Shown here piece after piece: positions 19,824 to 43,655 of a stretch of DNA of 64,000 nucleotides (positions are counted from its first letter, which is position 1; every line of letters starts with the position of its first letter). A program made the translations under genes and the position numbers. Under the pieces are notes generated by a model, which saw only the letters and a program-made list of their open reading frames with translations, searched no databases and was not told the origin of the DNA. This DNA comes from Lutjanus erythropterus (taxonomy: Eukaryota; Chordata; Actinopteri; Lutjaniformes; Lutjanidae). The DNA lies in assembly GCA_020091685.1 (NCBI GenBank), contig CM034601.1, forward strand, positions 37,160,034 to 37,224,033, written 5' to 3'.

Positions 19824-21929
19824 AACACGTCATTATGCACTCTTTACTAAATGTAATGCCTTTTTAATGCCTATATAAGTTTTCAACAAAGTCTTTCTGT
19901 CTCCATTTTCGATCCACACATTTTGCATACTGCAATTCAGTTTTTTTGCACCCTATATTTTTTGCACACCAATAGTATTATCTTTGGCATAATTTTTTTC
20001 CTCTAAGCTGTGAGAGCCTCAAGAAAACACTGTTTTGGGAGCCACGTATTCAGTCTCAGCTCAATTAAACACAATGTGAGCCTGAAGTGGGGCCCATGTA
20101 GTAAGTGAGCATAGACTAAAAGATTTCAGGTGAGGGATGAAACCAGTTGGAAAATCCTTAGAGGGCTGTGACTATACTCGTTGAGTCTGGAGTTACAGTA
20201 TGTAACTAATGTTCACACCTAATTATTTTTATACTGAAGTCACAGCTTTTTGCACTTACAGGGCTGGTCCCTGCTTTGCTGTGGTCTAGCCAAAAATATA
20301 GTAGGTTACAGGGACCTCAGCATCACATCTTGACAGAGGATCCTAGGTTTCTAGCAGTACTTGCATCACACATCATAGTAATACACTAACATGAAAGTAC
20401 AAAATGCATGATGAAGCTGTATGGAGATGTGGGAATCTGCAGTCAAACTGACACATGATGCTGTAGTAACACCTCGTCACATACCATTATATTCCACACA
20501 ATTTTGCTGTGTTAACATGAACATTACATACAGTGCCGTAAAAACACATGTACACAGTAATTACACACAGCCTTGTCAAGTCACTGGATGCATTAAAATA
20601 TTTACAGATTGTTGTCATGTGTGCCACAAAGACACAAAGACCACAAAACAAGCCGTCATGATTGGATTTGATTTGATCCAGTGCTATAAACCGCCACTGT
20701 GACAGCAACAATTATCATCCCCACAACCGAGGCCCCCACCAGAATGGATTTAGCATCTTATCTGACAATCAGGACATTGCTTTTCTTCGAATCTCTTATT
20801 GGCTTAGCGGATAAGCTTATTAAGGGTGACCCGCGAAGCTGAAAGAGCTGAACATTATATTACATTTTCACTGCAGATTGAAAAGCGTGTAAGCTTGCCC
20901 CCGTCCTGACAAAATCAGGGCTTCAGTCCAAATATTTACACACACACAACATTACCAACCCAGGAGATGTGCCATTAGTGCTTTTAGCTTGATCTCATTA
21001 CATATTTGGCCACCAGCAGGTTGAAATGAGAGTTCAGTCTAGGTAAGAGACTGATGCTGAATGATAATACAGCCTCTGGCAGGCCTAAGGCAGGGCTTTT
21101 CCATCAGGGCAGGTGGAGTGAGAGTCTACCCAGTGAGATGATTCAGGGAGCCAGAGGCCAGACACCAGAGCCCTCCGGTTGACTGGCTGACCTGGTTAGA
21201 GCCTCTCAAGGAACAGTCTTCAAACCCCGGGGCTAGACACCGCTCAGCAGTCTCCACAGCAATTACTCCTCACCGCTGGGACAAAGACCAAAGACCACAG
21301 CTCTCTTTTTACATGTGACTGACAAATGGGGACAGCTGTGAAGTGGTGGCTTTTACTTTATTCTTTTAATAGAAGAACTCAGATGGACAATCTGTAAAAA
21401 AAAAAATACTGTCATGTAAGTCCTACGTAGCAGATATTCAACTGCATTACACTCACTGCCACCATACTGTATGTGTTCATAAGGGTTTTGTGTCTTTTTA
21501 ATGCATGACTGCTGACACTACAAACAGCACAATATGTGAGACTTGGTGACACTACCGTGTGTGTGTGAAAAGGTAATACCGCTTAATTACTCAGAGAAGA
21601 AAAGGCTCATAAAAGACCTTCTCAGTTCCAACAGCCGCTACCAGTAATGCCAGGGTGGTCTGCCCAGTGACTGTGCCTGTTATCCCCATTGTACTACACT
21701 GCCTTATAATGAGCCAATACCAGCTGACAGTGCCTGATGCCAGGATCCATTTAATCCGTGGTTCATTTAATGTGCTGGAGAGGTTTAAACAAGGATATCA
21801 TAGTGGAAAGTATTTAAACTAAGATTAAACTAATTGCACAGTTTTGTATTGCCATGTACATTTGTGAGACCATTAAAAATGTATTTATACAGAAAAACTA
21901 CAGACAATTACAGAGCTAAAAAAAAATCA
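19824..21929. other. Intronic sequence, no gene seen
   Basis: No repeat or coding signal recognised. The stretch about 20710-20930 has mixed composition without simple repeats and includes GGATAAGCTTATTAAGG. It could be a conserved non-coding element, but this cannot be shown from a single sequence. Confidence 0.5.
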
Positions 21930-22297
21930 GTTATGACGGCCAAGAGGTAAGCGACAAAAAACTGACATACTGGAAAACCGACCTGTCTATTGGTAATTTC
22001 CTCACTGTTGGTACTCAGTTTCTCTCTCCAGACTGTTTCTGTAGTTGTTTCACATGTATCAATGGTGCAACTAAACACACCTATTAAATGATTGGCTGTT
22101 TGCGTGTCACTTGTGTCATTATACAGGGATGTAATGGGCTGTTTAGGAGCCAGGGCATTTGTTATGTGCTGTCATGGCAGTTTGCATTTAATGCCTTTAT
22201 ATGGAATTACTGACCATTTTATTAAACAAATTTCATATTGCTATTGATGGAGTGTCTATTGCTGATAAATATCAGTATTTTTTATTGCCCAGGCCTA
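21930..22297 (-). mobile_element. hAT-like remnant with one recognisable end
   Basis: The right edge, read inward on the minus strand, is TAGGCCTGGGCAATAAAAAA, matching the TAGGGCTGGG-type termini seen at 23479 and 28856. No partner end or target duplication was found. The left boundary is a guess. Confidence 0.4.
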
Positions 22298-22772
22298 TGT
22301 TAAGTCTTCCTCTGTGTTTACAATGAACAATGAATGAACAACTTGCTAAAAGTTTGATATTTATGTTAAAAAGAATCAAGTAAAAATCTTTAACTGAGAC
22401 ACTCAATAAAATTTGTAGACAGTAAATTCTGTGGACTTGTAGTAATTAAGGAATGATTTCAGGTACAGTCAATGGCTTCTTTTTGGAGGAGGTGGAGGAG
22501 CAGTCCTGCTATTATTGTTATAATGGTGGAGTGAAAGGAATTTTCTATGCAAGTTTTCCTAGTATTGTTATCTTCATCTAATGACTGATTTTTTGACATT
22601 ACTTTTGCTTTAAGTAATAAAGGAGTATTTGACTATCATCATTGTCATCCAGGGTTCACATATCAGACTGTGTGTGCATTACATTTTTAGGGCACTTAGT
22701 GTTCTGGGAGGTGAATGAACTTATTTGTTCTTTCTCACCATCGCTGGGTTTCTATATCTGATTTATAATATA

Positions 22773-23291
22773 CAGCTCTGGAAAATTAAGAGACCACTGC
22801 AAAATGATCAGTTTCTCTGGTTTTACTATTTATAGGCATGTGTTTGAATAAAATGATCATTTTTGTTTTATTCTATGAACTGCTGACAACATTCCTCCCA
22901 AATTTGAAATCAAAATATTGCCATTTAGTGCATTTATTGGCAGAAAATGACAACTGGTCAAAATAACAAGAAAGATGCAGTGTTTTCAAACCTTGAATAA
23001 TGCATATTCATTTTTAAACAACACAACACTAATATTTTAACTTAGGAAGAGTTTAGAAATCAATATTGGTGGGATCATCTCAATCTTTAATCACAGCAGT
23101 GTTTTTTATCATCTTCCTCATAAAATAAGATTTGGTTCAGGTGATCATCTAATCAGTGTCTCATTAAGTAGAATGATGAGGCTTGTGTTGGAATCCAACA
23201 AACACTGGAATGGACTGACTGTCATACATGTAGAGATGCTGATTGAACAAACACTTGTGAGAGTGCTCTCTTATTTTTTTTACCAGAGCTG
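22773..23291. mobile_element. Tc1/mariner-like non-autonomous element
   Basis: The ends are CAGCTCTGGAAAATTAAGAG and, on the other strand, CAGCTCTGGTAAAAAAAATA, flanked on both sides by the TA dinucleotide (22771-22772, 23292-23293). The left half, read in reverse, has GAAACTGATCATTTTGCAGT and ATAGTAAAACCAGAG, which I know from a common fish family. The 519-bp length leaves no room for a transposase. Confidence 0.75.
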
Positions 23292-23478
23292 TATGTTTGA
23301 TATGTGCACAGCTTGTCAAGTGGAGTAACAGACACTTATCATTTGTTGATACAGCTTAGGATGAAACTTGGAGCATTCGGTTTAATGTAAAGGATCTCCC
23401 TGCTAATGTAATCATGGTAGAATCATAAAAATGAGATCGTACAGTGGCCCAAATCAAGATTGTGATCTTAATACAGCC

Positions 23479-23938
23479 TAGGGCTGGGTGATATTGCTTA
23501 TAAATAATATCTTGATATTTTTAGGCTATGCTGTGATATACAACATATACATCAATGTACATTTTCTCTAAACTGTACCGTAAATTCTCAAATAGTGGCC
23601 AAGGCCGTATATGTTTGACCAAATACCTTGATTTTGATGCTGTGACAATATTACAGGGATGACTATTGGAGCTTCCACAAAACATTAACACAATGAAATA
23701 TTTGACAAATAATCATCAGTACTGTGGATATGATGACTAAATGGCTAAAGCAAAAATAATAGAACAGCTAGAGCAGTCTGTTAAGTTCAGAAAATTACGT
23801 CACTTTATTGCAATGCAGCCTTTAAAACCAGGAAAAGACAACACTTATGTCACGTCACAATATAACAATATCCACAATTTAAGACAATATCCAGTCACAC
23901 ACAGTATTCATATAATATCAATATATTGCCCATTCCTA
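23479..23938. mobile_element. hAT MITE, TAGGGCTGGG family, 460 bp
   Basis: It begins TAGGGCTGGGTGATATTGC and ends ATATTGCCCATTCCTA. A perfect 8-bp target duplication, ATACAGCC, flanks it (23471-23478 and 23939-23946), as expected for hAT transposition. The interior is AT-rich and non-coding. The 69-codon open frame at 23741-23950 runs across its right end and is not a gene. Confidence 0.85.
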
Positions 23939-24507
23939 ATACAGCCTTGAGAATTACAGTAGTAGTGTAAATAGTAGTATTAGTAGCAGTAGTACATAAT
24001 GGAACTTAGTCATGTCACGAAACATGTTTTCAGTCAATTTGGTGACTTTGGAGAAGCCAGACATGAAGAAAAACACATACAGATAAAGTTTATGTAGAAA
24101 TCTTCAACTAAAATGAATGTGAGAGGAATTGCCCCAAAATCCTATATTTAGCCAAACCAGCATTCCTTCCAGAGTGACCTGAGTCCAATTTCAAGCATTT
24201 CACCAAAATGTCTGGAAAACAGACAAATAAAGAAAGACAAACAGTCAGACCAGCAGACAGACAGGCAGGTGGTTGGACTGAGATGTGGGGGATCAGAGGG
24301 GGGAGGTCCAACCTGAGCCCTCCTTGCTCACCCCGTCCCCCACTCATCGTCTCCCCACTTCCTTCAGTGCCAGAGAGCAGATGGGCTTCACAGCACGTCC
24401 CTCTGTTCACCAGAGCCACTGTACAAAGCAGCACACACCACAGGCCACCAATCCAACATCAGTGAGCTGAACACAGCCTAACCAGGACAGAACAACACCC
24501 CCACCCG

Positions 24508-24508
<1 letters not shown>

Positions 24509-24576
<68 letters not shown>
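24509..24576. repeat. (CA)34 microsatellite
   Basis: 68 bp of uninterrupted CA. Confidence 0.98.
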
Positions 24577-24577
<1 letters not shown>

Positions 24578-24670
24578 CAGTGTTTCAGTGCCAGAAACAT
24601 GTATCCTGCAGGTCAAAATCCAGGCAGATATAAAGATGTGACCTGTAGTTACAACATCATCACCGCCAGC

Positions 24671-25318
24671 AGGGGTGGGGGAAATTTCCGAAGATGCATC
24701 GCGATTCGGATGTGGACGAATCTGAATCGATTCACAACGCCCAAATTTCGATTATTTAAATCTGTTAATTAAAGTGATACAGAAGGTTCTAAATAATGCG
24801 GAACTAAGAAGCGCGTGACGCGTCATCTCCGACACTTTGGGATGTGCACCTGGAGGACACGCTGACACGCGCACAGAGGAAAACAAACATGGCTGACCGC
24901 CAGCCACCTTGCCGTGAGATCCGAACAGCTCCTTCTAATTTAAAAGCAGACGTGGAAACACTTCGGCTTCTACAACGCCAACGGCGAAGCGAACTGACAA
25001 GAGCAAGTTATATGTAAGCTGTGTCGTGCTAAAATAAAATACTTTGGCAACACAACAAACATGAGAAGCCATGTAACTCGATTAGTTTAATAAAATATAA
25101 TGGAAATTAATTCAACTCTTGTTTCTTATTACAAATGCACTGTTTTTAAAAATTGCAAATGATGAATGCTTATTCAGTGAGACAAAAGAAATGTGTGTTG
25201 TGAAAAAGTGCATCAATATACATAAATTAAAGATGCATCAATAATCGCTTTATAATCGAATCGTAGCCCCTGAATGGTAATCAATCGACCGGCAGGTGCC
25301 CAAAGATTCCCACCCTAA
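24671..25318 (+). mobile_element. hAT element, internally deleted, with BED-finger remnant
   Basis: It starts AGGGGTGGGGGAAATTTCC. The other end, read inward, is TTAGGGTGGGAATCTTTGG. The flanks CCGCCAGC (24663-24670) and CCACCAGT (25319-25326) match at 6 of 8 positions, an aged 8-bp target duplication. The left part is GC-rich (GCGCGTGACGCGTCATC) and is followed by a broken transposase N-terminus. Confidence 0.75.
24889..25090 (+). pseudogene. Broken hAT transposase N-terminus with BED zinc finger
   Basis: An ATG at 24889 opens a short frame (MADRQPPC...). After a frame change near 24953 the sequence encodes WKHFGFY, an in-frame stop, then CKLC, KYFGNTTNMRSHVTR and a stop at 25088. The order W-x2-F, C-x2-C, N-T-x2-M-x2-H is the BED-type zinc finger of hAT/ZBED transposases, which binds the element's termini. 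At least one frameshift, one internal stop and loss of the whole catalytic part make it non-functional. Confidence 0.75.
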
Positions 25319-26470
25319 CCACCAGTGTGATATTTAAAGGTAAGTAACATTTCCTGAAGTTGTCAGAATCTGTTCTGAGACATCACTTGGGACACATGAA
25401 TAAACAAACAAAAAAGATGCAAAATGTTTTACCTTCTGGGTTTGTAAATGTTTTCTTAACTTGTGAAGTGATTATAAGTCTCTACATTGCAGCTGAGCTC
25501 CTGAAAACAGCTTAAAACCACAATCTGACGCAATGAATATGTGAGGCAGGTTCTAATAAGCTCTGCTATAATCCTACATGTGACTGAGTTGTAACCTTCC
25601 TGTTTATGTTTGCACTTTTCTAAACTGAAGACATCCATGACAAGTGGACTGACTGTAGACTTGCATAATTAAGGTTGCTGCTTGGTTTAACTTGCACACT
25701 CATGCAAATTCACCGTAGTGCCTCATTTGATTTCAAACAGGGACGAATAGACACAAAAATCTTTTACACAAGGACAGAACACTTACATTGAATCCTCTTT
25801 GCATGCCTATTTCAATAAGGAATGCACTCAATTTTAATATATCTTGGAAAGTGATGGGAATGGATATTTCTGAAGTTCTCATTATTATTTGGAAAACGTT
25901 AGCTCCATGATACAGTTGAGTGATTCGAAGAAATATCTAATTGGAATTATTTTGACTGATTCTGCATTGCGATATGATTTGTGATATTACAGGAAAGGAT
26001 CATTTTTACATGAGTATTAATCATTTTGATTGAAAAAATTATGGTATGGTATTTTTAGAGATCTTTACTAAACAAAGATGTTTTCTGAAGTCTAGAGACA
26101 CCTCTGCAGCAACAAAATATTTAATACAATATGTTATTTTGACACAAAATTCACCTTTAACAAATATTGTGCATCCAGTATATTGCAAGTTCTATAAAAT
26201 TTAGATTAACTGTTTAGGTCTACTCCATGATGGAGCATAGTTAAAGACAATCAAATACCTTTATCAATCACTGATTTAATGCATCAAGATTATTCCCTTC
26301 AACTGAAGGATATTTTCATAAACTTCCATGACTTCAATGTCGAGTTTATTTCCAATACAAAACAGAAACTCAATTTAGGAAAACACTTTTTCACTTTCTG
26401 ATTTGTCAGTATCCCCAGGTTACAGGAGGTGGTGGGCTTCAGACAGTTCATAAAATTTAGTTTAGCTAAA

Positions 26471-26577
<107 letters not shown>

Positions 26578-26725
26578 AAAGTACAGTGTGATGACAAGAA
26601 CATTTTGACATGACTTCCCACTTCTAGTCCTCTATCCAAATACAGATAGAGAAACAGATATTTTTGGTTGGGAAAATACAGACACAAATACAAACAATGA
26701 CATCTCTGAGCTCCTCTGGAGATTT

Positions 26726-26800
26726 ACCCTAACCCTACCCATAACCACTACTTGCCTAAACCACTTAGTCAAACTCCTTAACCTGACCTTAACCTAACTG
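26726..26800. repeat. Degenerate CCCTAA / CCTTAA repeats
   Basis: The sequence begins ACCCTAACCCTACCCATAAC and continues with spaced CTAA, CCTTAACC and CCTTAACCTAA units. It resembles a decayed interstitial telomere-like tract but has only two adjacent perfect units. Confidence 0.5.
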
Positions 26801-29006
26801 ACCCAAAATTCAATGTTTTCAACACAGGATATGGCTTTTGTTCCCAGCTGCACCAGCCATCTCCAGTTAACTGGTATTGAGTCTGAAATGTGTCCCTGAA
26901 AAAGGTCATAAACAGACACACACATAGCCTTGAGCTGACTGACCACAGAAAGCAGTGATAAGTTCAATACTTCTGCATTAAAGTCTCTGGTTAACTTTTC
27001 AGAGCCATAATACAATGACTATAGTCCTAAATCAAAATCTCAAAATCTGTCAATTAAACAAAAACATACCAGTGAATAAAAGCTCCCCCCAATATGATAA
27101 AAGACAAGAAGAGTTAAGGAGTCATATAATTTGTGGCTTGCTACTGTACTCTCATCCATCTCAGCTGAAGCTTCCTCTATCTGAGCTCTTTTTTCACTGT
27201 GAAGCAATATGTCAGAGGCGCTTATAAACATTTCTCTATTTTCCCCCCCTTGAGCTTACAATATCTCATAGTTCAGTACATTGGGTCAGTGCCAGAGATC
27301 GAAAACATTTGCTGCAATCTGCGAGCTCGGCTGGAAGAGGAACAAAAAAAGAGGGAAAGAAAAACACCTCTTGCTTTATTCAACACCAAATTCTCTCTCT
27401 TCCCTCATTCTGCTTAGAGTCAGAGAGAACAAAAGTGCTGATAACAGGTACTCTCTCACCAGGCTGAAGCAGTTCTAAATGGAGAATTAAACCTTGAGAC
27501 AGACCTCTGACATTTAAAATGTAACCTTGTGGGAGGACAATGCCTTAACGTTTATTTACAGTGAAGCCAAAGGAAAGAAAATAGTTCTGCTAGATAACTC
27601 TGCAGCTTGTTTCTCGTCACAGAGGACAAAAAGGGGTGGTGTAGGGCACAGATGATGATCTTTTCAATTATGCAGATGTCATAAAGCGCGACAGATTAAC
27701 GTGTTATTGAACACCAAGGTTGATAGGTCTATCTGCGTCTTGCAGGGAACAGAAAACTATTTTTTATTATTGAGAATGGTGATGGTGTAACAGTCTGGGC
27801 CTCAGCTGCCCTCAAAGCCATATACATTAGGTTATCATAATCATCAGTAATATAATCATTAAATCATTTTTGATCATTACCAAGATTAAAGGGAGCCATT
27901 GTAATTGAGAGAGCTCTCAGTGGTGACTAAGCCAATATGCCTTGTATTTAACCCACCGAGTTGTTGCGATCATGTCAAAGCCACTTGTGTGTAGAGGGTT
28001 CATGTTTGTTTGTGTGTTAACACATATGTGGGTGAACAGAGGAGGGAGGTGAGAAACAGAGTGGGTGAGAATGTGGTGGATGTGTTTGTGTGTGTGAGAG
28101 CTTGCATGTGCATGAATGCATCTGCCAGCATTTGTGTGTGTGCTCTCAGGAGATCAGGGATGGGCTTCCTTGCGTCAACAGCTGAAACACCAGTCATGAC
28201 TGAAACATGCCACTGCAGCCACCTGCCAAAGTATCCATCAAGTACACACACACACACAGTCAGACCAACAATATGAGACACATTTGAAATCAAAGTCCAG
28301 TTGAACACATTTATGCACACACATTGTCACACAGACATACATCCACACAGTCATTTCTGTAGTGTATGTACAGCTGTCACAGCAGTATAAGACAACCTTG
28401 AAACTAGCAGGTAGCACCATCTGTCCATTAGCTGGTACAGGAACAGACATGACACATATGCAGCAGTGGTGACCCTCACAACAGAGGTCTCCCTCTGTTA
28501 CAGGATAAAATCACTGTACGCTGCATTCACAACACTACTGTACTTTCTTTGTCATGTGCCTTGTTAAAAATAGGAGCCTTTCAAAACAGTTGGAACACCA
28601 ACCAACATTAGTAATGATTACAGGCTGAGGGGATCGTCTTCTCAGCAGTGGAGGACAGACACAAGAACATAGCCACAACAGCTCAACTGCCTGATACAAA
28701 GCATCTTGCATAAAAAGTATCATAAACAGTATGTAGTGTATCTGTAGGATTACATGGGTATGAACTTTGTGTTCTGTAGGTACAATGACGGTATCTCATA
28801 TTTAAAATGCTTGACAATTTTCTGAAATTTGTTCAAGAGACACCAGAGTATATACTAGGGCTGGGTCATAGATTTTGGATACTGTTGTGTCATGATATGG
28901 CATATATGTTGTCTCTTCTTGCTTTTAAAGGCTGCATTCCAGTAAAGTGATGTAATTTTGTGTACTTACCAAAGTGTTATACTTGTTCTGTTATTTGTCT
29001 TTACTC

Positions 29007-29839
29007 TAGAGATGCACCAATTTCCGTTTTTTTTTTTTTTGAAGGGTCTGACCTACCGATTCCGATTTTGGCTGATTCAGATTTTCAATGATTCCTTGTA
29101 AAAATTAAATTAGATGTTCATAATAAGACACTGACTATTAAATATTCATTAAATACTATTTAAATTTTCTCCAAAGTCCTCCAGGTTACAACCAGGCCTT
29201 ATTATAGTTTTATATTAAGATTATGAATCAGGTGAACATGATCTCGCGAGATCATGGAATCTCGTGGGATTTCACAGGACGCGATTTCATGTGATCTCCT
29301 GTGGTAAGATGTAAACAAACCAGAGACAGACACGGTGCAACAGTTTGCTGCAGTAAAACTTTACCATGAAAAAAACAGACGCAGAAGTTAAACAAGTCTG
29401 GATGAGAAAATGTTTGAAGAGACACATCAACACAGGTTGTTTATTCTTCAGCCAGAACAGGAGGTGAGATTTTAAATGTCCCTCTGTGAACAGCAGTCTG
29501 CTGCTGGCTAACATTAGCCTGAAGAGTAGAGAGTTTACGGCTGTTCTGCGACATTGTCAGCTGCTCTGTCTCGTTGTAGACTGTCTGTCTTCTCTTTATC
29601 CTGTTCTTGGAATCTGTCGCTGACACCAACTTCATGCAAGCATGTGTCTGAGTGTATAGCTGTTATCAGCACTGTGGTGATATCACGGTCAGTTTGTCTG
29701 CTGCACACATGACGTGACCATCGTGCAGAACATGTGTGACAATGACTGGCAAAGAATCGGATTTATGATGCCGGTCAGGGCCTGTCACGTGAAAAACTGT
29801 CCCAATTCCAAGCATTGCCGATTAATCGGTGCAAGTCTA
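29007..29839. mobile_element. Inner hAT element, copy 1 (833 bp)
   Basis: It begins TAGAGATGCACCAATTTCC and ends ATCGGTGCAAGTCTA. A perfect 8-bp duplication, CTTTACTC, flanks it (28999-29006 and 29840-29847). The right terminus has decayed from the GTGCATCCCTA seen in copy 2. The interior is alignable with 36392-37268 over most of its length. It contains the palindrome at 29237-29256 and a 33-codon plus-strand frame from about 29366 ending near a GAG|GTGAGA donor-like site. It is non-autonomous. Confidence 0.9.
29237..29256. promoter_or_regulatory. 20-bp perfect palindrome centred on TCTCGCGAGA
   Basis: CATGATCTCGCGAGATCATG is its own reverse complement. TCTCGCGAGA is a known core-promoter element of vertebrate TATA-less genes. 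It lies inside the inner hAT copy, upstream of the short open frame, so it may be part of an ancestral transposase promoter. In copy 2 the centre reads ATCTCAGGAGAT and the palindrome is lost. Confidence 0.6.
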
Positions 29840-30438
29840 CTTTACTCACAGTCATTATATCCACATTACTGATGACTGAAAATCTCAAGGATCCGATTAA
29901 TCATTAAAGATAAGTGGAGGGATTTTGAGAAGACTTGGCACCCTTTATTCTTGCATCTTGCAGATGGAACCGAATCCTAACTGCAGTCCGGGGTTGGGGT
30001 GGGGATGGGGAAGACGTAGATGGGGAGAAGTTGGGTTAGAAGTCTTATATTTTTCTTTTTTATATCTAGGGAGTATGTTCCTGCTGTGTTTTATATTTCT
30101 TATTATGTTTATTCATATGGAAATTAAGGACGGCAATACCATATATTTTTTTTTAATTAAAGATTCTTCACAACAAAAACATCTGAAACATATTCATTGA
30201 AACACTCAGTGTTAATATTCTGTGAGAGCACTAATAGTCATCCCTACAATATTGTCACAATATCTATATTAAGGTATCAAGGTATCAAAAATATTGTGAT
30301 ATTGATTTTGTCCATATTGCTCAACTTTAATGGTATACTATTTTAGAGTAAATGTGTATATCAAGATATATATCGTGGAATAGCCCACAAATAACAAGAT
30401 ATTATCTATAAGCTATACCACCCAGCCCTAGTATGAAC

Positions 30439-30754
30439 CCAAACATCTATCAGGTTTTAATCAAATACTAAGCAATCTGAAAATCCTACAAAATTGTGAC
30501 CAACAGGGCAAAGCTGGAATGGAAATCAAGAAATACCACCACAATACTGCTCCTACAAAGCTACCATGGAGTCAACAGTGTACAGTATACATAAGCAAAC
30601 TATGTGCCTGCTAACCCATGGCTTTGTTTTCCCTCATGTCTGCTTGTCCTGCAGTGACCCACACAAACATGTCCTTGAATGTGCAGCTCAGGAGGACCGA
30701 CCCTCTCCCAGAGAAATGGCGGAGCATAACCTCAGAGTCTATGCTTGCGTGTGA

Positions 30755-30799
<45 letters not shown>

Positions 30800-32142
30800 T
30801 GTCTGTGCTGTAACAAAGAGTCCTTGCTGGTGGTGGAGATATACCACTGCATCAGTGTAAGCATAAATATTCATTAGTGACCTTGTCACCTTCCTACACA
30901 TAAAAATATGTTCAGGTATACAGTACACTGATATGCACGTACCCTAGAAACTATATTTCACACTGGAGAGCATTTTGACTTCATTCATTCAACTAACACA
31001 AGTTAAACACAATAGGCTACCATTAATCATGGGTGTGTTGAACATGCTTGTGATGTCGCTTAGTCTGTCTTTTTTTGTAAAACACAGAAATGTGATCCAG
31101 CCATTAATTTGTTTCTGTATTCTGCTTTGCTTTTTTCTTTTGCACAATTGAGTTTTACTTGTTTGTAATTGTCAGAAAAACAACATCTACATGGAATATG
31201 ACTATGTAACAATCCTTGTGAGAATACGTAAAAATGACTTGCTTCCAAAAGCCACCAACAGAACCAATGTCTATCATTAAACCAACACCAGAGCTGTAAA
31301 CACAGATGAGGTGTTTACTTGCAGATTTCTGCAGTGACACAGTTCTCTTGGGATGGTTAAGTTATTATGTGATGACACAATAAAAATCTAATACACTGAA
31401 CACTGTATTGCTTAGTCTGAACGACAATCCCACCATCATAAAAATGTACAACTGAGTAGAGTTATTTTTTTTCCTGTAAAATGACCACAGATAAAGCAGC
31501 TTTGGCAAAGTATTAATTCAGTTTAAACATCAAGGCCATGCTCTGAGAAACTGTGAGAAACTACAAGCAACAGCAGCATAAGGCCAGTGAAAAGCCTCAA
31601 AACCTTCATATTTCTAGATGCACATTTTCCAGAGAAAGTACAATAGTAGCTGCTACTTTTTTCCAAACATCCCCAGCTACCCCACCTCCAGTGCCAGTGT
31701 GTAGTGAACAATGGACTGCACAAACACCCCCACAGAAGCTTGCATTAACAAAAATAGCTGTTTTACATTTGCCCTAACTACAGATTTGATATAACAACAT
31801 GGACACTTGGTGCATCAACAAGTGAACACTGAGCCAAGAGGAAGCAAAACAACTGCAGAAGTATTTAAAGATACTTGAACTCACTGTATTGACAATTCAT
31901 TTCAATATGACTTTTCTAGGCATATCTGTTACAGATATCAAAAATCTCATTTCACTGACTACATCCATGGCATTATCTTCTCACTTTTTCTCTCTTTTCT
32001 CAGCGTGATCGCACTGAAAGGACACATTGTCAAAAAGGCTGTGTAACAGAAATCTAAAATCTGCTATACATGATTTAATGTTCATATGATATGATTACTG
32101 TATCAATACAATACAAAGGAATAAATAAAAAAAATATCTTAA
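30439..32142. other. Intronic sequence, no gene seen
   Basis: Holds the CGTG microsatellite. The rest is unremarkable and lies directly 3' of the auts2 exon in the sense of transcription. Confidence 0.5.
30756..30802. repeat. (TG)n(CGTG)n microsatellite
   Basis: A short TG run passes into about eight CGTG units, strictly alternating purine and pyrimidine and GC-rich. Confidence 0.95.
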
Positions 32143-32148
32143 ACTCAC
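32143..32148 (-). promoter_or_regulatory. Splice donor GTGAGT of the auts2 exon
   Basis: The minus strand reads ACCATG|GTGAGTTTAAG. All six intronic consensus bases are present. Reading through adds only hydrophobic codons (SLRYFFYLF...) unlike the charged exon, which supports ending the exon here. Confidence 0.75.
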
Positions 32149-32361
32149 CATGGTGTGTTTCTTGTTCAGGTGTTTCTTCTTCCTCTTGCCTTGTGTGTGT
32201 GCCAGGCGGGGGTTGTTCTCCTGGTCTGAAGGCTGTTGGTGGTGGTGATTGTTCTTGCAGGGCTCAAGGCTCAGGCCGTTGGGGACCCTGGCAGGCTTCT
32301 TCTTGTGCAGGGGCCCTGCCTGGTTGTCTCTGCACTCCTGGGGCTTCAGTGTCATATTCTT
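32149..32361 (-). CDS. auts2: Internal coding exon of an AUTS2-like gene (probably coding exon 2)
   Basis: This 213-bp exon is open for exactly 71 codons and reads Lys-Asn-Met ... His-Thr-Met. Seen: on the minus strand a TACTAAT branch-point match (branch A near 32393) lies 31 nt before the acceptor. A pyrimidine-rich tract and TAG follow, and the exon ends ATG|GTGAGT. Residues in order include LKPQE (5-9), PLHKKK (17-22), NGLS (28-31), HHH (39-41), SDQEN (45-49) and a basic GKRKKK cluster (58-63) that resembles a nuclear-localisation stretch. Known: human AUTS2, as I recall it, has the same order of blocks just after its EALEKD segment. AUTS2 is a nuclear protein of non-canonical PRC1 (PCGF3/5 type) that recruits CK2 and p300 and activates neuronal genes. 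Inferred: this is an auts2 co-ortholog; a or b cannot be decided. The paralogs FBRSL1 and FBRS fit less well because they lack the NGLS-His-SDxEN stretch as I recall them. No other exon of the gene was recognised in the window. Confidence 0.75.
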
Positions 32362-32398
32362 CTAGAGAAAACAGCACAAGAGAAAGCTTTAATTAGTA
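32362..32398 (-). promoter_or_regulatory. Splice acceptor with branch point for the auts2 exon
   Basis: Read on the minus strand, TACTAAT (32392-32398) is followed by a pyrimidine-rich tract and CTAG at the exon edge. The first three exon bases are AAG, so the site reads TAGAAG, a NAGNAG tandem acceptor. Use of the second AG would remove one Lys codon without changing the frame. Confidence 0.75.
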
Positions 32399-33802
32399 CC
32401 AAAACAAATGTTTTATCACCAACGCTGGTGACATGTTTTATAGCACGTATGAGCTGTGCAGCTGGCCTTTGAGGACTCAGCAATCATACGGTCCATTAAC
32501 AGTCAAATCAATGTTTCATAAAATTTTATACCTGAGAAAACCAGCTCATTAGCACACTCAAGAGCTTGAACAAAAAAGAGCTGAGTATCCTACTCATAAG
32601 AGCCTGTTTTGACAGATAGCAAATCTCCACTCAACAGTAAGCAGTGCAGTGAATTTGCTCCAAATTGAGGGGCAATCGTGCAGAAAGGCTTTAGATACAG
32701 TGTAGTATCACAAGATTTTCTTCCACAGAGAACAGCATGAAAGTGGTTCTATGTTAGATTTGTGTGGGGTTTTGCCACTTGGTTTTATATGAAAGTACAA
32801 AACAGAGAGGCCAACAGGAACAATGATGATAGGGAGAACAAAATGAGACCCAAACTGGATTCAAAGAATGATGTTGCAGTTAGATGGTGTGTGACTAAGA
32901 CAGCAAACAGGATGCCAAAAGCAATGGGAATTTTCAATTAGTTGCCTCATTACAACTCTGCAGAAGGACAGCAATAAACATCAAAATGTTTCATTTCAGT
33001 TTTCCCGCCACAAAAACTACATCTGGACACATTTCTTTTCATGAGGAGAACTGGATTCTGAAAAGAAACCGATAAGTTACAACTCCAATATTGCAGGGTA
33101 CACACATGGGGTTATACAGTTTGACAGGGCTGATCAATAGAGCCACTCATCTGCTGCTGAGGGACTGTGTAATGTTTCACAGCTGCCCACAGTAAAACTT
33201 ATGGAACAAATCAGCTTTGTTATTTGAAGGGGTGACCTGTTTTGCTCCATTGTGGACCAAAGAGCCATTGGTGTTAATACCCCCAGGGAGACATTTAAGC
33301 TGGTGAGGCAGTCATCTGAGTGGAGGCTGGCTGACTGTTTAAGAAGAAGGTGCAAAGCTGCTACAGCTCCACTAATGACTTGTCAATACTGTGCAACATT
33401 TTAACAAGAAGGCTGGAGAGACAGGCTTGTGAGCACCTAGTGGCATTTACACCACTGATGTCTGGATACATGAACACTTTCAAGGCCAAGAAAAGTAATA
33501 TATGTATGATATGTTAGCCTGAAGCACTTATTCTCTGGGTGCATGTGTACTCTTTTAGCCTTTAACCTTGATTATGGGTGTATGAGGATTATTCCTGCAG
33601 GACCAATAACACTGCTCTTTGCCATTTTTCAATACTCTTGCCATGTTTACCTTATTCTATCCTCTGCTTTCTAAATCCTCCATATCTGTGCTACTTGAAA
33701 AGTTGACAATTTTCCACTGAATGACAGGGATTATTTTACTCATTTCTGCGCTGTCACAAGTTTAGGCTAAATTAAGGTCCAGATGGATTATGGACCTGCT
33801 CC
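32399..33802. other. Intronic sequence just upstream of the auts2 exon
   Basis: No repeat family and no coding segment recognised. Confidence 0.5.
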
Positions 33803-35010
33803 ATTGGTGGAAAGAAGCTAAGTACATGTACTTTACTTGATAATTCCATTTCATCTTACTTTATACTCCCACTAAACTCTATTACATTTATTTGACAACT
33901 ATACAGTTGCTAGTTAGGCAGCAGGGTTGCAGACAATCTCAAATTATGGCAAAACAGTACTCTAAAATGTGTTTTGGACAGTGGGGGAAAGAGTACTGAA
34001 AATCTGTACTCAAGTACAAGTACTATTACATTGCTAAAATATCACTCAATTACAAGTAAAAGTACTAGTGTTAGAAAAATACTTAAGTAAAAGTACAAAG
34101 TATTTGTCAAAAAAACTACTCAGAGTATTAGTTACTTTTAACCAATGATGTTACCATCACCTCTCCAGACTAGGGCTCTAAATTTTCTGTTTTGCTTTAC
34201 CAATAGTTAAAACACTAACAATCATTAATAACTGACTTGATACAAAAGAAGTAGTTTTTTCCCCTCATTTTGATTGGCTGATTTCTTGTCTTTTTTTTTC
34301 TCTCATTTCAAGTTTTTATTTCCTTATTCAGCAAATGTCTCCAGCAGACAAAACAAAGCTAGATGAGGTGCAGTTACTGCCATGACTATTGATTAAATAT
34401 CCATGAATACATTTTTAACTGGTTAAATTCTTAATGAAAAATCAATTAAAGCTCAGTCATTAACATACTTTTTTTGTTTTGTTTTTTGTCCATATGTCCT
34501 GGTTTTCTTTGGCTTTTTGCTACCAAATCATTTTATTGGCTACTGGCTAATTGCTAAATGCAGATAAAAGGTCTGGATATGAATTCAAATTGTACTCAGT
34601 ACTCAACTATGATTTTAAAAGTAACTAAGTAGATTACATGGCATAATGAATACTTAAGTACAAGTAAAAGTACAGACTTGAAAATCTACTCATAAAAGTA
34701 CAAGTACCCCAAAAAACTACTTAATTACAGTAATTTGAGTATTTGTAATTAATTACTTCCACCCCTGGTTTTGGAAAACATTTGAGGCGAGAAATGAGCA
34801 ATGTTGTAACAAAATCGACGAGTCAAGGATGGTGTAAATCTGTTTGAATGGGAGGGAGACCAGAGGTATCTGTCAGAGAAAATGAAAAATGAGCTTGCAG
34901 ATTTCTGGTTCCAAGTCTACTGTAAATTAATTTGGCTATTAATACTTACATACTTTTACTTAAGTCAAATTTGGAATGCAAGACTTTTATTTGAAGTTGA
35001 GTAAGGCTGT
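33803..35010. mobile_element. Outer hAT-like remnant (TGGTGGAAAG / ACTTTTACTTAAGT type)
   Basis: The left part reads TTGGTGGAAAGAAGCTAAG and ATGTACTTTACTTGATAAT. The right part, after the inner element, has ACTTTTACTTAAGTCAAAT and GGAATGCAAGACTTTTAT. These are the two halves of a common teleost element as I remember it, split by the element at 33979-34767. The terminal right end is decayed and no target duplication was found. Confidence 0.55.
33979..34767. mobile_element. Inner hAT element (CAGTGGGGGAAAGAGTAC), 789 bp
   Basis: It begins CAGTGGGGGAAAGAGTAC. The other end, read inward, is CAGGGGTGGAAGTAATT. A perfect 8-bp target duplication, GTTTTGGA, flanks it (33971-33978 and 34768-34775). 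Both subterminal regions are rich in AAGTAC motifs, likely transposase binding repeats. No coding frame of useful length. Confidence 0.9.
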
Positions 35011-35540
35011 GTTCTAACCAACTTGAGCAACAATAACAAAAATGCAGCTCTCTTATTCATTTGAATGGGGCCAGTCTGTTGCCGCAATGGTCACCCAGCA
35101 ATAAACCTGGCTTCACTTGAACCTGGCTTAACTTTTAATACGACGAAATGTGACCTCATCTGGCAAGGCACTGCCTTGGCCAATTAAAAACATGCAAGTG
35201 CACATGCTTGGTTGATTACTTTGTTACATCAATGGTGTAATTGTATAGTATACCATCATAGTCACAGAAGATAACTGTGATTAGGGCTAGGCAATAGACC
35301 CTTTTATAGCCAATGCCATTTTAAAAGTTTGCACACCTTTTGGCAGCGGAAGTAGCCGTCTCCCCAAGTCATTCAGATGAGTTAGCAAGATGCAAATGTT
35401 GAATTAAGAATTTAACCAGCACCAAATTAACCAAAATGCCTGGTTGCTGTGTATATGATGCGTCAGAATTGATATTCTACTGGTCGACTTAATTTGTACA
35501 GAATTTGGATTAGATCACAATCATTTCAGAACAATTGGTG

Positions 35541-36030
35541 GCATTTGTTTATTTTATTAGGATCCCCATTAGCTGCAGCAAATGCCGCCGCTATTCTTCC
35601 TGGGGTCCGAACATGCATAAAATTATACAATATATGCACATAATACGTACATACAACAAGAATACACAGCACAGACTGTGCTGTTATTCAAAAGTGAGTG
35701 ATGTTATGGAAAAGTCCTTATCATTGCCATTTCCATTAATAACACAATATTATACATTATATATGTTATTCCTATAAACCGTCTCCTAAATCATATTACA
35801 TGTGATATAATTATACTATATACGATACTGACACCAATGACAATAATAACAACAGCAATAAGTATTACCGTTATCATTACCGCCATTACAATCCACACAA
35901 CATCCTTATAGTTTTAATATTATTGGCAATAATATTATCCACTACAACCATCGTAGTACTGATAATAGCAATAACAACAATGAAAGCAGCAGCAACTGTG
36001 ATAACAATAATTGAGATAGCTGCAAGCTAT
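35541..36030 (-). mobile_element. Probable retroelement 3' region
   Basis: On the minus strand the end reads CTGCAGCTAATGGGGATCC followed by TAATAAAATAAACA, a polyadenylation-like tail. GGATCCCCA (35560) and TGGGGTCC (35601) form an inverted repeat. I remember this GGATCCCCATTAGCTG motif as frequent in teleost genomes, but the family is uncertain. The body to about 36030 is degenerate ATA/ACA-rich sequence. Confidence 0.4.
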
Positions 36031-36202
36031 TAAATGTGTTGACTGGACTGAGAACGTGATCAAAACTGCTCGTTTGTAGCACCCATTGACAAGCAGTTGT
36101 GGTCCACTATACTTCCATTGCCATACTGCAACACAGCTTGCTCACTGTATATATATATACATATTATATATATCGATATTATATCATGTTGTAATATGAG
36201 AC

Positions 36203-37310
36203 TAGCTATCTTGATAGATTTTGGATGTCATTATAATGTGATATGACATACGTGTTTTCTTTCCCACTCATTATATCCATGTTACTGATGATTATCAAAA
36301 ATCTCACTGTATTAATATTTTAGAAAAACTCCAACAGTCATGCCTACAATACTGTTGCAATATCAATATTGAGGTATCTGGTCAAAAATATTAGAGATGC
36401 ACCAATTTCAATTTTCTTGGCTGATTCTGATTTCATTTTTTTTTTGAAGGGTCTGACCTGCCGATTTTGATTTTGGCCGATTCCTATTTTCAGTCTCTCT
36501 AAGAACTATAACTGAAAGCATTCACAAATATTTTCGCAACTTTTCTTATAAAAATTAAACTGGATGTTCATAATAAAACGGTAAGTAATACTATTAAATA
36601 TTCATTCATTACTATTTTACAGTCCTCCAAGTTACAGCCAGGCCTTATTATAGTTTTATATTAAGATTATGAATAGGGGGAACGCGATCTCAGGAGATAA
36701 TGGAATTTCATGGGATTTCACAGGACGCGATTTCATGTGATCTCATGTGGAAGCAGATATTAACAATCCTGAGATAGACGCGGTGCAACAGTTTGCTGTA
36801 GTAAAACGCAGAAGTTAAACGACTCTGGATGAGAAAATGTTTGAAGAGACACATCAACACAGGTTGTTTATTCTTCAGCCAGAACAGGAGGTGAGATTTT
36901 AATTGTCCCTCTGTGAACAGCAGTCTGCTGCTGGCTAACATTAGCCTGAAGAGCTACAAAGTTCACGGCTGTTCTGCGACATTGTCAGCTGCTCTGTCTC
37001 GTTGTAGACTGTCTGTCTTCTCTTTATCCTGTTCTTGGAATCTGTCTCTGACACCAACTTCATGCAAGCATGTCTGAGTGTGTGTGTAGCTGTGATTAGC
37101 GCTGTGGTGAGTGAGATATCACGGTCAGTTTATTTAATGCGCGCATGACGCGACCATCGTGCAGAACACGTGCGTGACAATGACAGGCACAGAATTGGAT
37201 ATGTGACGGTCGGTCATGATGAAAACTGGATGGTTCCGGTCTCTGGCTGATCGATCAGTGCATCCCTAAAAAATATTGTAATTCTGATTTTGTCCATAGT
37301 GCCCAGTGAT
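36203..37310. mobile_element. Outer hAT element, second copy, interrupted
   Basis: ATAGATTTTGGAT near 36214, TCATTATATCCATGTTACTG at 36269 and GATTTTGTCCATAGTGCCCA near 37287 parallel segments of the element at 28856-30430. It is split by the hAT at 36392-37268. Its own termini are decayed (TAGCTATCTTG at left, GCCCAGTGAT at right), and no target duplication is visible. Confidence 0.55.
36392..37268. mobile_element. Inner hAT element, copy 2 (877 bp)
   Basis: The termini TAGAGATGCACCAATTTC and GATCAGTGCATCCCTA are inverted repeats. A perfect 8-bp duplication, AAAAATAT, flanks it (36384-36391 and 37269-37276). It is the same family as 29007-29839, and a segment such as GAAGAGACACATCAACACAG is identical in both. 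The insertion point differs from copy 1, so the two arose by separate transpositions. Confidence 0.92.
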
Positions 37311-39623
37311 AATACAATACTCATTCTTGGAGCACACAACATGTTGTCAATAATTATCAATATAGACCGACATAAAACTTCAGTATTGTGATAGGTTTTT
37401 CAGCTATGAGTTGCAAAATGCTTTCTATGAGTATTATAAAGTGTTATCTAGTGTTTTTGTGTTTGATTAGCTTTTTAATGCATTAATCTGTTACTCCAAC
37501 AGGACTTTCTGAATCATATTTCATTGTCTCACTGGTACATGAAACCACGCTTCCACTAACACAGGATGCTAAATTCCATACGACATTGCTACTTTTACCT
37601 ATGTAAAAGACCTGAGTGTTTCTACCACCACTGACATACTGTCTGCCTCATGCATGCTGGAACATCTTCTTCTACTTTATTTCATTTCAGTGTGAAGAAA
37701 AACAAAAACTGTCTCAGTCCAGTAACATTTTTAGGGGTGGTTTATGTAACAGCACTCACTGGACTCCACAAAACCATGCCGAAGTCCAGGATTTATCCCA
37801 CAGCCCACAGAAACCACAGTGTATCTCTTATTTATATCACAGTACATATGAGGAGGACATCAAGGCAGATTTTCTATCAAATACTGCTCAGAAAAAATCC
37901 ACCACATCTTGAGCAGCGGCAGTTAGTCATTGAAGGACCACCTCGAAGCAACCTTAGCGTGCCTGTAGAGAATTACTTACCAGTGTTACAGATATGCACC
38001 GCTGTCAGATGGATGAGTTTGATGGGTGTGCTACTGGCACTGACTCACTAAACCATTTCTAAAGGCCTCAATTCACTTGTAGAAAAACAAGTGCATGCAT
38101 CAACTAATCTTGTTTGCCTTTCCCGCCCACACTCATCCAAGGCAAATAATGCAACATGACATGCATTGTCAGTGCACAGAATATGTGACAAAGTTATGAT
38201 GGGGCTGAGAGAGCTTCCATTGTGCCTGCTTTCTGCATGCTTCTAAGCCGCCAAACCAACTGATTGCTTGGAATAAATGATGCACATTATGTTTTGCCTG
38301 CTCACAGAACAATAGCAAGACAAATTCCTTATTTCAGCGCCTTATGATGACACTGGGAAAAAAGTAATTGCTCAATATGGCTCACTCTCTGCTAGCTTTC
38401 ATTACTGTGATTGTCTGGCAGTGTACAAAGTAATTACACTGCGGTATTTAGTGCCGATGCATGTCTGCAGGTATCCTTACAACAGGTTACCATCTGGAAG
38501 GCAGCTATTATGATCAACTCTATTTGAAATCTTTTTGGAAACCAGGCTGGATTTATACAAAGGTTGTACAATGTTTCACATGTAGTGTGGGATAAAAACT
38601 TGCTACTTTCAAATATATTGTTATTAATCTGATATTTTCAGACAAAACTGACTTGCATATTTATAGATTCTGGGTTCATTTCAAGAAAGAGGAGATGCAA
38701 TTTTAAGTTGAATATTGAAAAACCACATCATAACACTTACTATTCAAAGCAGAGTAGTTTTATATGTCTTAAAACATGTCTGGAGGGGATCTACTGTATA
38801 ACTCTCACAGTTAATGTGCCATTATAGTAGACACCCAGATATGTTTGCAAACTGGATCTGAATCTAATGCCAGAAGCTACCTGCAGTCGATTAATATTGT
38901 GCGCTCCATGCAATTTTCTGTTGAATATTCCAAAGCTGCTCATTAACAATTCATATACAGTAGAATTATGATGAACATTCCCCATACTTCCTCTGGAGCT
39001 CGCAATAAAAGTGGAACAGTACGTCTATGATACTACTTTCACAGTCAGGGAGAGGCTGAATGAAACAATGGAAAGCTCTGTCTGCCAAAAGAATAACTAC
39101 CGTTTAAAATAATAAATTGGAATGAATCAGTACATAAAGATGATGAATTGAAGGGACAGAGTGCGGTCAATGAATGATTCCAGGAGCAGGTTCAATAATC
39201 TCTGCAGTATGGGATATGTCTTATCCAATCAAAAACTTCACTGATTTACTTGCTTTTAAATCTGAAACATTTTCTATGCACGGCAGGCCTATTCAATTAC
39301 TTTCTTTTTGAAGAGACAGATTTTAAAAAGTGAAGTGCTAAGATGCCAGATGTTTAGATTTCCTATGTGTGACCTGTGAAATTAGGAGTTTAAATGTGGA
39401 AAACAATGCATCTTTTTTTTTTTTTTCTCTACTTTAATACTGGAGAAAAAAAATTACATACAAAGGAACAGGAAAAATGCATCTTTGCAATCCTAGATTA
39501 GAAGCTTGTTGTTTTAATAAACACAATGTTGCACTTGACAAATTCCCTCTGCTTAAATAGCCTGAGTTAAGACTTCTTAAAATATATCATCTCTGCGTTT
39601 AACAGCAGACTTAACCAGTGAAT

Positions 39624-39637
39624 GGGCTAATTAGCCC
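39624..39637. promoter_or_regulatory. Perfect palindrome GGGCTAATTAGCCC
   Basis: 14-bp self-complementary site with a CTAATTAG homeodomain-type core. It is followed within 50 bp by CAATGTAAATA (forkhead-like). Function is inferred only. Confidence 0.35.
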
Positions 39638-40896
39638 TCTAATAAAATGATGATCTTTCAATAAACAATGTAAATAACCATGAAAAATTGATAACTGATT
39701 AAAAGATCTGGATTGAGTTTATTAAAGGGGCTGCCAATTAAATAGGCCTAATGTATGGTATTTCAGCTCAATAAGTCTTCAGACCATCTGCCTACTTTCA
39801 TTGTACAAATTACATGAAACTTGTTTTGACACTGTTGTCAAAACAACGGTCCTTTAGACGACTATTTATCTCCACATTATGTGTGTGTGTGTATGTCTTA
39901 CATTTCTCTTATTTATCTATTTTTTACTCTCTCACACATTGTAGTGGTTTTCCTTCTTCTCCTGCTTGGCTCACTTATTTCCCCTCCCTTTCTTCACTCT
40001 CCTTTGTCTTGTGTTTGAACACCACCATGAAGAACCTTCGCCATCCCTCCTCCGTTTGCACTGAACTCAGTGACTACAGCAGTATATTAAACAAGCTGGA
40101 CCTTCTCTGGTCTCCCACAGCCTGCTGGCTTTTGAGCCACCAAACAGACGAGCCTGTGAAAGGCTGATCAAAGAATCTGATCACCTCGTCTAACTGAGAC
40201 AATTTAATTAGTTTATACAAACTGGGCTCACGGCAGAGAGAAGAGAGAGGGATGGATGGTGGCAGAAAACAGGAACAGACAGAGATGGTGAGAGACGGAG
40301 AAGCAGAGAGAGCACTCGAATGAACCAGAGGCTTAATGAATCTGGCTTCCCACGATACTGCTGCATTCAACAGTGAGCTCCATTACATCTGAGCACACGC
40401 ACACACACACACAAACATACACACACAGAAACACAACTCACATCAACAAGAACAGACAAAGTAAACAATAATTGGAGATGTAATGAATGCTAATAAAGAC
40501 TGATAAGTACAATCTCTCCTTGTGGGGTACTTGGGGACTCCAGGACAACAGCCCATATTAACTTCAGCTAGCTAGTTAAGTTGAGCAGTGAATTGTCTCT
40601 CATTCTTTTGGGAGTCCTTGACCTGATTATCACATTTTCAGTCGGTGTGAAAAAGCATTAAGCGAGCTCTAAGTGTTGAGTGTAACAAATTGCTGGGTAA
40701 TTCACTGCTGCTGTTTGTGGTGATGTAACCTATTACAGGTGTGATTAGAGCAGCTGAACTACTTTGAATGTAATGGGTCAAGTGCAGGTGAGAATGACAC
40801 GTAATAGTCACTGGCCCAGAACTTTCTTCAAACCTATTAGCATAGGATGCACAAAATATTGATCATAATCATCCACTGTTCTGAGTGGTCTTCAAT

Positions 40897-40920
40897 GTTT
40901 GTTTTGTTTGTTTGTTTGTT
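40897..40920. repeat. (TTTG)n microsatellite
   Basis: About five TTTG units with one TTTTG variant. Confidence 0.9.
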
Positions 40921-41434
40921 TTAAACACATGCCTTTTAGTTTCTTAATAATCATAATAACAACAATAAGTAAAAATTTGTTACAGAAACAATATTCATCC
41001 ATTTATTGGGAGTCAACCCTCACAACACATATCAGTACCAACAGAAATCGTGTGTCTTTTGGCACAGCAGGGAAATAACTGGGGGAAAGTAATGCACACT
41101 GACACATTTCTCTAAATGTCATTGAGGGAACAATGTTAAAAACATTGCAGTTTAGATTCCAAATTATTTTTTTTAAAATACTACATTAAGTCACATAACA
41201 GTTGATGATGGTAAAAACAAAATACTAAAAGATTTATCTAAAATCATTGAAAAGCTAAAAACTCAAACATTTTGCCTTTTGCCTTACACATTGTTCAACC
41301 ATCTCCCAAACACCTCTGTTGGAGTACAGTGATCCCCATAGTGACATTAGCTCCCAGTACAAGACACTGCTGGAAGACGAGCTATAATAAGCTGAAAATA
41401 CACTATACAGCAAACTCTAAATTTACTACAGAAT

Positions 41435-41747
41435 TAAGGCTGCACAATTAATCGCAATATAATTGAATTCACAATATGGGCAAGTGCAATATCCAGAAGA
41501 ACCCTACCACTTTTTGCTGAAATGTGTGACAAAACAGCATTATAATGCACTGTAGTGCTGCTGAGATGCTCTGACCTAAAAATCTTGTTGTCCTGATATA
41601 AGACAGACTTGTTTGTTTGGTACAGAGCCCAACAAGTTTAACTTTTTTGTGATGCAAAAATAATCATTTCCACTAATTGTATTGCATATCACAATTTCAG
41701 TGAAAATCATCACAATATGGCTTTTTTTGCCATATTGTGCAGCCCTA
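41435..41747. mobile_element. hAT MITE (TAGGGCTGCACAATATGG type), 313 bp
   Basis: It begins TAAGGCTGCACAATTAATCG. The other end, read inward, is TAGGGCTGCACAATATGG. The flanks TACAGAAT (41427-41434) and CACTGAAT (41748-41755) match at 6 of 8. The right end also forms a local hairpin, ATATGGCTTTTTTTGCCATAT. Non-coding. Confidence 0.75.
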
Positions 41748-41755
41748 CACTGAAT

Positions 41756-42226
41756 TGTTTCTTACCGTGAATTAGACAGGATTCATTTTTATTGATTTAA
41801 TAGTTGACTGATAGCTGATTCAAGGGAAAGAAATAATTTTTCAAGCAAATATGTCAAACATGGAGATACACTAGTTCACTAGAACCTCTTCTTCCACCAG
41901 ATATTGATTTGCTGTTTTTCTCTACATTATTTTAAAACTGAACATCTTCAGGTTTTGATCAGACAAAAACAAGCAACTCTTGGGCTCTAAAGGACTGTAA
42001 TAGGGATTTTTCCACAACTTGTGTCATTTTGTATATTAAATAATTAATTGAGAATATAGTCAGCAGATTAATTATAATAATCATTAGTTTCAGCTCCAAA
42101 TTAATATCTTTTAAAAGTTTGTATTTCACAAAGGCTACTAACCAAATCTTTGCAGTCAATGTGATTCTGTAAAGTTGTTAAAGTTTTAACAACGTGAAAA
42201 AAAATCCATATTTCAATTTTTATAAT
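41756..42226. other. Intronic sequence, nothing recognised
   Basis: AT-rich, no repeat or gene signal. Confidence 0.5.
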
Positions 42227-42526
42227 TATCTTTCACTGTGGAGGTTGCCAATCCAATTTACCAACACGGCGGCCAAGAACGGAGATCATTATACAAAGTG
42301 ATAATATGCAACAACAAAAGTCAAGCTTTCTACTTTCAGTCCATGGTTCTGCTTATTTTCAAATCTCTCCACCAGATTTAAAGATTTTTTTTAAGGGGGG
42401 GGGCTTTTTGCCTTTATTAAGATAGGACAGCTGAAGATATGACAGGAAAAGGGGAGAGAGAGAGGGGATGACCCCCAGCAAATGTACCGCAGGCAGGAAT
42501 CGAACCGGCAGCCACTGCAGAGGACC
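42227..42526. repeat. Segmental duplicate, source copy (300 bp)
   Basis: Identical to 45134-45434 except for one T in a homopolymer (8 against 9 T). It comprises 141 bp of ordinary flank, the SINE's left target duplication and about 145 bp of the SINE. Confidence 0.97.
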
Positions 42527-42582
42527 AGCATCAACATATGGTGTGCACGGCCTACCAACTGAGCTATATGGGCGCCCCTCTT
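42382..42582 (-). mobile_element. tRNA-derived SINE, complete
   Basis: Read on the minus strand: GGGCGCCCATATAGCTCAG (box A within TAGCTCAGTTGGTAGG), box B GGTTCGATTCC (42496-42506), a TCTC-rich stretch, then TTAATAAAGGCAAAAAGC and an A-rich end. A 14-bp target duplication, TCCACCAGATTTAA, flanks it (42368-42381 and 42583-42596). This organisation is a tRNA-promoter SINE and not a true tRNA gene, because no acceptor-stem pairing closes after box B. Confidence 0.9.
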
Positions 42583-43655
42583 TCCACCAGATTTAATATA
42601 ATAATGCAAAACCACATGGCTAAAACACAGAGAATTAAAAAAAAAGTGAAGACCCAGTAATGCATGGAAATTAAGCTGGTTTTGCAAGGATAATTCAAAT
42701 CTTGTGTTCTGATGGAACAAACCACTGCATCACTATCAGCTTTATGTTCCAGTTGGCTCTCTAGTAAAGTAATTTAAGATTAAAGACAGCTGGAATAACA
42801 ATTCAGCACTGAAGTCAGACACAGAAAAGTACTGTTTGACCAGACTTAGTGTCAAATAGTTGTGAAAAGTAGCAATGGCCAGAAATGTTTGACAGATTCC
42901 TCATCATGGCTAAAAAAAGCACTAAGCAACAACCAACTCCTTCCGTAGCATGCATTAAAGTCATAATGGCAAAATCGTCTGAAGTGGATACAACACCACC
43001 TGCAATTCTTTCTTATTTGTGGCACTTTAACAACTGGTGGAATAATGCTAAATCCAATCCTTTGTGTCAAAACAGAGTAGTTCCAACAAAAATACATTTC
43101 TTTGAATTAAAGACAACACTAGAGAGCAACACGTAACTGTCCACAGAACTGTGTACTGCTAAAAACACATGCTCCAGTGCAAGATGTGAGGAATTCAACC
43201 AGCCAGACGGCCATATGGATATCCATGTACACTTCAGTACTCGTGCTTTCACTCAGCCTTCAGTTTCTGCATCTTGAATGGCTGCCAAGCACCAAGCAGC
43301 TCAAGTAGAACTATTTTCTTATAAGAATGAGACGAGAAGTGGAGAAAAGAGTTGCAGGGAAAGAGCAAGGTCCTACAAAAAAATCATTCAGCAGTCCATC
43401 CAGCAACCTGACCTGCAGCTCAGAGAAATCAAACACAACGAAAAGACCTGAGAGTCTTTGTCTGTATTCAGGGCTGCTTAAGAGGACAGCAGTTCCTGAA
43501 TACAGACCAAGGAATGGAAAGTTTAGGTGTAGAGGACAGAGTTTCCCACAAAAAAAAAAGAAAAAAAGAAGTTGATAATATAACTTCAGAGATATTGACC
43601 GTAGAGATGCCTTCTCTTCAATATAATGGCACACCGCATGTGCCACCGCAAGACC

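Follow-up and report, generated by a model that had tools for sequence, protein, structure and literature searches.

We report that a 64,000-nucleotide stretch of genomic DNA (the window, C11:37160034-37224033) carries one recognizable exon, found at positions 32149..32361 on the minus strand (C11:37192394-37192182), and that in this teleost-like genome the exon is very probably the second coding one of auts2a. It is 213 bp long, comprises 71 codons in phase 0/0, and is the equivalent of human AUTS2 exon 2 (exons are numbered here as in human AUTS2, in part by inference). An earlier note on this DNA had described a 71-codon auts2-like exon with clean splice signals at these positions and had taken the surrounding sequence to be a 5' intronic region; the coordinates proved exact, the intronic placement was borne out by exon equivalents beyond both edges, and the present work adds the minus strand, auts2a as the most likely paralog, and the assignment of the flanks to intron 1 and intron 2 as numbered in human AUTS2.

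Reading of the minus strand from 32361 to 32149 gives the peptide KNMTLKPQECRDNQAGPLHKKKPARVPNGLSLEPCKNNHHHQQPSDQENNPRLAHTQGKRKKKHLNKKHTM, 71 codons with no stop. The sequence directly before the exon, ...gctgttttctctag, is a pyrimidine-rich acceptor ending in TAG, and the 5' splice donor GTGAGT (32143..32148, minus strand) follows; both were read directly. The GC content is 56% in the exon vs 39% in the window, and reaches 79% at third codon positions of the exon. Six blocks of the AUTS2 type were found in order, as previously noted: LKPQE, PLxKKK, NGLS, a His cluster, SDxEN, and GKRKK. A splice rule was applied to the window, in which a segment must combine a GTRAGT donor, an open frame, and a pyrimidine-rich YAG acceptor (exons with other splice-site types are missed); this exon was the sole segment of at least 213 bp among 33 GTRAGT donors on the minus strand and 24 on the plus strand, and with the limit lowered to 90 bp there were 13 rows, of which one is this exon and the other 12 measure 99-181 bp. 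By itself, the exon peptide had no match in Pfam or PDB at E values up to 10; the Pfam Auts2 model describes the C-terminal part of the protein only. When the exon was searched against the 937.6-Mb genome, two matches were obtained, and the convincing one was the exon itself. The other (E 0.54, on C13) is a short exon-like stretch encoding LPGVRIIIANPETKGPMGE, which we presume to be like a DIP2-type exon and which was discarded as unrelated.

The human AUTS2 protein used as reference was a working copy, and 15 residues of its exon 2 were verified in print: the peptide VALKPQERVEKRQTP is given as the AUTS2 wild-type peptide in a passage of PMC6325142. The window exon aligns to residues 104-167 of this human reference with 44% identity over 64 columns. 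The homology search proposed earlier, run here against this reference protein and the genome itself, gave a significant match: the tblastn E value was 1.2e-10 with the exon piece of the AUTS2 reference as query, 1.1e-7 with the whole reference protein against the window plus the loci, in a listing that reached about query residue 724, and 2e-8 with the whole protein against the window alone, or 1e-4 with the low-complexity filter and composition correction turned on. In the filtered search of the window the exon was the single match at E values up to 1. The unfiltered search gave 38 matches at E values up to 1, of which 33 were excluded by rule as matches of the His/Thr-rich repeat or HQ region, and four more (E 0.2-0.4, one of them in another frame of the exon) were taken as chance and vanish with the filter. 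In translation, CA/TG microsatellites look like the HQHT repeat of AUTS2, which is rich in His, and produce false matches; long CA/TG and AT/AG microsatellites are present in the window at 24509-24576, 26471-26574, 43659-43719, 1544-1597, and 3890-3952. When AUTS2 was searched piecewise, the best window match besides the exon had an E value of 0.44 among the matches listed, at most 14 per piece. The exon-2 piece also matched part of the C9 locus (E 0.033), in antisense orientation to the gene there. The exon shares with human AUTS2 exon 2 the residue blocks in their order and the phase of the upstream join, but differs by a gap of two residues ahead of the His cluster and by its last nine residues, which are unaligned; the 44% identity is modest. 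Membership in the AUTS2 family is supported by this similarity to the human reference exon 2, together with the auts2 exons that appear to lie around it on the same strand of C11.

Those exons are collinear along the minus strand of C11. The exon-1 equivalent was located 93 kb upstream of the window exon, at C11:37285491-37285222, through two matches (E 6.3e-13 for the main part, and 0.085); it starts ATGGATGGCCC... and ends LEALE, followed by a gtgagt donor in phase 0, in agreement with the 71 whole codons of the window exon. The exon-3 equivalent, 76 kb downstream at C11:37116475-37116359, shows 72% identity over 39 residues (E 8.7e-8). No equivalent of human exon 4 was located. The locus sequence retrieved from C11 lay outside the 60 kb of 37100001-37160033. 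Two small candidate exons with splice-like edges follow, CDTESDQDDK between gcag and gtaagc near 37036676 (best E 0.13) and VSDASSEKFFSTAAVK (VSDASSEKFF) between cag and gtact near 36952667 (best E 0.033), both suggested by short matches and position, with worse E values for other query pieces. Further downstream are exon 7, near 36930088 (E 2.4e-14 in one search and 0.2 in another), an exon with the PPPY motif and HQ repeats at 36925602-36925384 (99% identity to the human reference, or 87% as cut and gapped in another alignment), and five Auts2-domain (PF15336) stretches above the curated cut-off in the profile search at 36921916-36916394. The latter are 270-276 kb downstream of the window exon on the same strand and, judging from the collinear exons, would belong to one gene with it; from the exon-1 equivalent through the last Auts2 stretch, the matches cover 369 kb. 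Med13_C exons are found at 37.52-37.53 Mb, 238-245 kb upstream of the exon-1 equivalent. The exon is thus placed as in human AUTS2, between an exon ending LEALE and an exon matching LKPGQNSC..., with like distal domain exons and with med13 nearby, as for teleost auts2a and human AUTS2.

The AUTS2 family has several members in this genome, and N- and C-terminal blocks are common to all of them, so we considered whether the exon could come from fbrsl1, fbrs or auts2b instead of auts2a. The genome search with PF15336 gave 21 matches at E values up to 10, 13 of them above the curated cut-off: five on C11 (minus strand), four on C9 (plus strand, ~32.52 Mb), and four on C20 (minus strand, ~26.54 Mb). 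The C9 and C20 copies, presumably fbrsl1 and fbrs, share with the C11 gene both the Auts2 domain and a segment that resembles exon 1 and has a similar end, but have lower identity in the Auts2 exons and no convincing match to the window exon. According to passages of PMC7732068, the PPPY motif occurs in all AUTS2 orthologs and is absent from FBRS and FBRSL1. C11 carries PPPY and HQ repeats (GPPPYLRTEFHQHQ...), and the identity of this exon to the human AUTS2 reference is 99% on C11 vs 69% on C9, while no match at E 0.001 was seen on C20 among the 150 of 18057 candidates scored. Seventeen of the 19 matches of the PPPY/HQ exon fell outside C11 and C9 (E 4e-7 to 9e-4) and were taken as His-repeat noise. 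In the stretch matching human residues 669-716, the identity is 94% on C11, 57% on C9, and 47% on C20. The paralogs also differ greatly in size: AUTS2-family matches span ~381 kb on C9 (C9:32146935-32527832) and ~20 kb on C20 (C20:26539593-26559903).

The sister copy auts2b, derived from the teleost whole-genome duplication, appears in this genome as a lone stretch at C4:28212560-28212622 (QRPGRWGALHVCIAWRIYYHEQ) resembling the conserved AUTS2 exon 14, with an E value of 0.07 and a score below the Pfam cut-off. Of 12 Med13_C matches, four each lie on C11, on C4 (28.199-28.202 Mb), and on C18, the C4 set being 10 kb from the AUTS2 stretch; a passage of PMC9454499 names med13 as one of the genes neighbouring auts2 in teleosts, and, with a Med13_C set near both C11 and C4, med13 alone cannot tell auts2a from auts2b. 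Excerpts of PMC9454499 and PMC5555464 describe auts2b as lost in acanthomorphs, with conserved-exon remnants in the eight species examined, and auts2a as kept, and the C4 stretch looks like such a remnant. Zebrafish auts2b is described, in the portion of PMC5555464 that treats it, without the region of auts2a exons 1A-6, while the 5' exons here are retained on C11 and auts2b is reduced to the C4 remnant. The pattern of C11 and C4, i.e., auts2a kept, an auts2b remnant, and med13 nearby, fits the published acanthomorph picture. Taken together, identity, the PPPY motif, and med13 synteny point to auts2a as most likely the C11 gene, rather than the C9, C20 or C4 copies, and an origin of the window exon from one of the other family members is very unlikely.

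It was also considered that the segment might be a pseudo-exon or a decayed exon that is spliced in no more, since its identity is below that of most other exons found. The open frame, the conserved blocks along the whole exon, the consensus splice sites, the fit of the upstream phase, and the high third-position GC stand against such decay, to which we assign only a slight probability. That the frame is open by chance and its resemblance to AUTS2 a coincidence might be suspected from the short length of the exon, from its biased composition (K, N, H, Q), and from the weakening of the match under low-complexity filtering. The local alignment score to the reference exon 2 is, however, 117, a value reached by none of 5000 shuffles of the exon residues (best 61) and by none of 1000 shuffles aligned to the whole AUTS2 reference (best 66), and auts2 exons lie on both sides on the right strand; coincidence is thus so improbable as to be negligible. 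We retain the reading as an auts2a exon, for which the sequence, the splice motifs, the homology, the collinear exon order, the phase of the exon-1 junction, and the nearby med13 were observed directly, and we infer that the exon is transcribed and spliced as drawn and that the organism is a teleost, presumably an acanthomorph fish.

With the exon-1 equivalent 61 kb past the right edge of the window and the exon-3 equivalent 43.6 kb past the left edge, the remainder of the window can be assigned to introns. Positions 32362..64000 (minus strand) would be the 3' part of the upstream intron (intron 1 in human numbering, ~92.8 kb in total), and positions 1..32148 (minus strand) the 5' part of the downstream intron (intron 2, ~75.7 kb to the edge of the exon-3 match), so that intron 1 would account for ~31.6 kb of the window and intron 2 for ~32.1 kb, with the one exon between them. 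The earlier statement that the exon is the only coding signal stands for what was scanned and not as a blanket claim: none of the 20 frames scanned with Pfam, out of 49 that run from stop to stop over 90 aa or more, exceeded a curated cut-off, the window had no Rfam match and no tRNA by ARAGORN, and the splice rule at 213 bp or more gave this exon alone. A 130-aa open frame at 45935-46327 (minus strand), with no Pfam match above the cut-off, is reminiscent of a fragment of a fish LINE reverse transcriptase.

The acceptor of the exon has the form of a NAGNAG tandem, TAGAAG (32359..32364, minus strand, read directly), of which the inner AG would remove the first lysine codon. In the zebrafish auts2a gene, as described in parts of PMC5555464 and PMC9454499, exon 1A carries no coding sequence, translation begins in exon 2, and the acceptor of exon 3 is NAGNAG; a zebrafish transcript starting in intron 3 is without 166 N-terminal residues (PMC5555464). 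The exon-1 equivalent and the window exon together encode 90 + 71 = 161 residues, and from the closeness of 161 here to 166 in zebrafish the window exon probably corresponds to zebrafish exon 3. TAG-AAG may then be the same alternative site as that of zebrafish auts2a exon 3, and may be used here as well; that it is a retained site common to both, by which one lysine is included or omitted at the join of the Tay-homology segment and the linker, is a tentative proposal to which we give limited credence.

In the predicted protein the exon would be spliced between the N-terminal exon carrying the nuclear-localisation and Tay-homology segments (ending LEALE) and the human exon-3 equivalent, and would extend the N-terminal domain of the long Auts2a isoform by 71 basic, Asn/His/Lys-rich residues that probably form a disordered linker. 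Since whole codons would be joined in phase 0, the exon could be skipped, or could start three bases later (TAG/AAG), with the frame intact. The N-terminal domain of AUTS2 is presented as largely disordered, and divergent between conserved regions 1-3, in sections of PMC7732068, and the exon is positioned essentially between regions 2 (69-105) and 3 (199-240) as given there. The best-supported role is that of a flexible, basic, frame-neutral linker; the KKK and KRKKK clusters may confer a weak nuclear-localisation function, and any help of the Lys clusters in nuclear import is a guess. Patients in whom combinations of AUTS2 exons 2-5 are deleted in frame are described as milder in a passage of PMC8750789, which fits an exon that encodes a linker and leaves the frame unchanged.

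The exon is an ordinary ortholog part of a known and well-studied brain-development gene. Disruption of AUTS2 in humans leads to AUTS2 syndrome. From sequence alone, one 71-codon exon was sufficient to give an anonymous, intronic window of 64 kb its right place, and the result adds the positions of an auts2a exon and its introns in one more genome.
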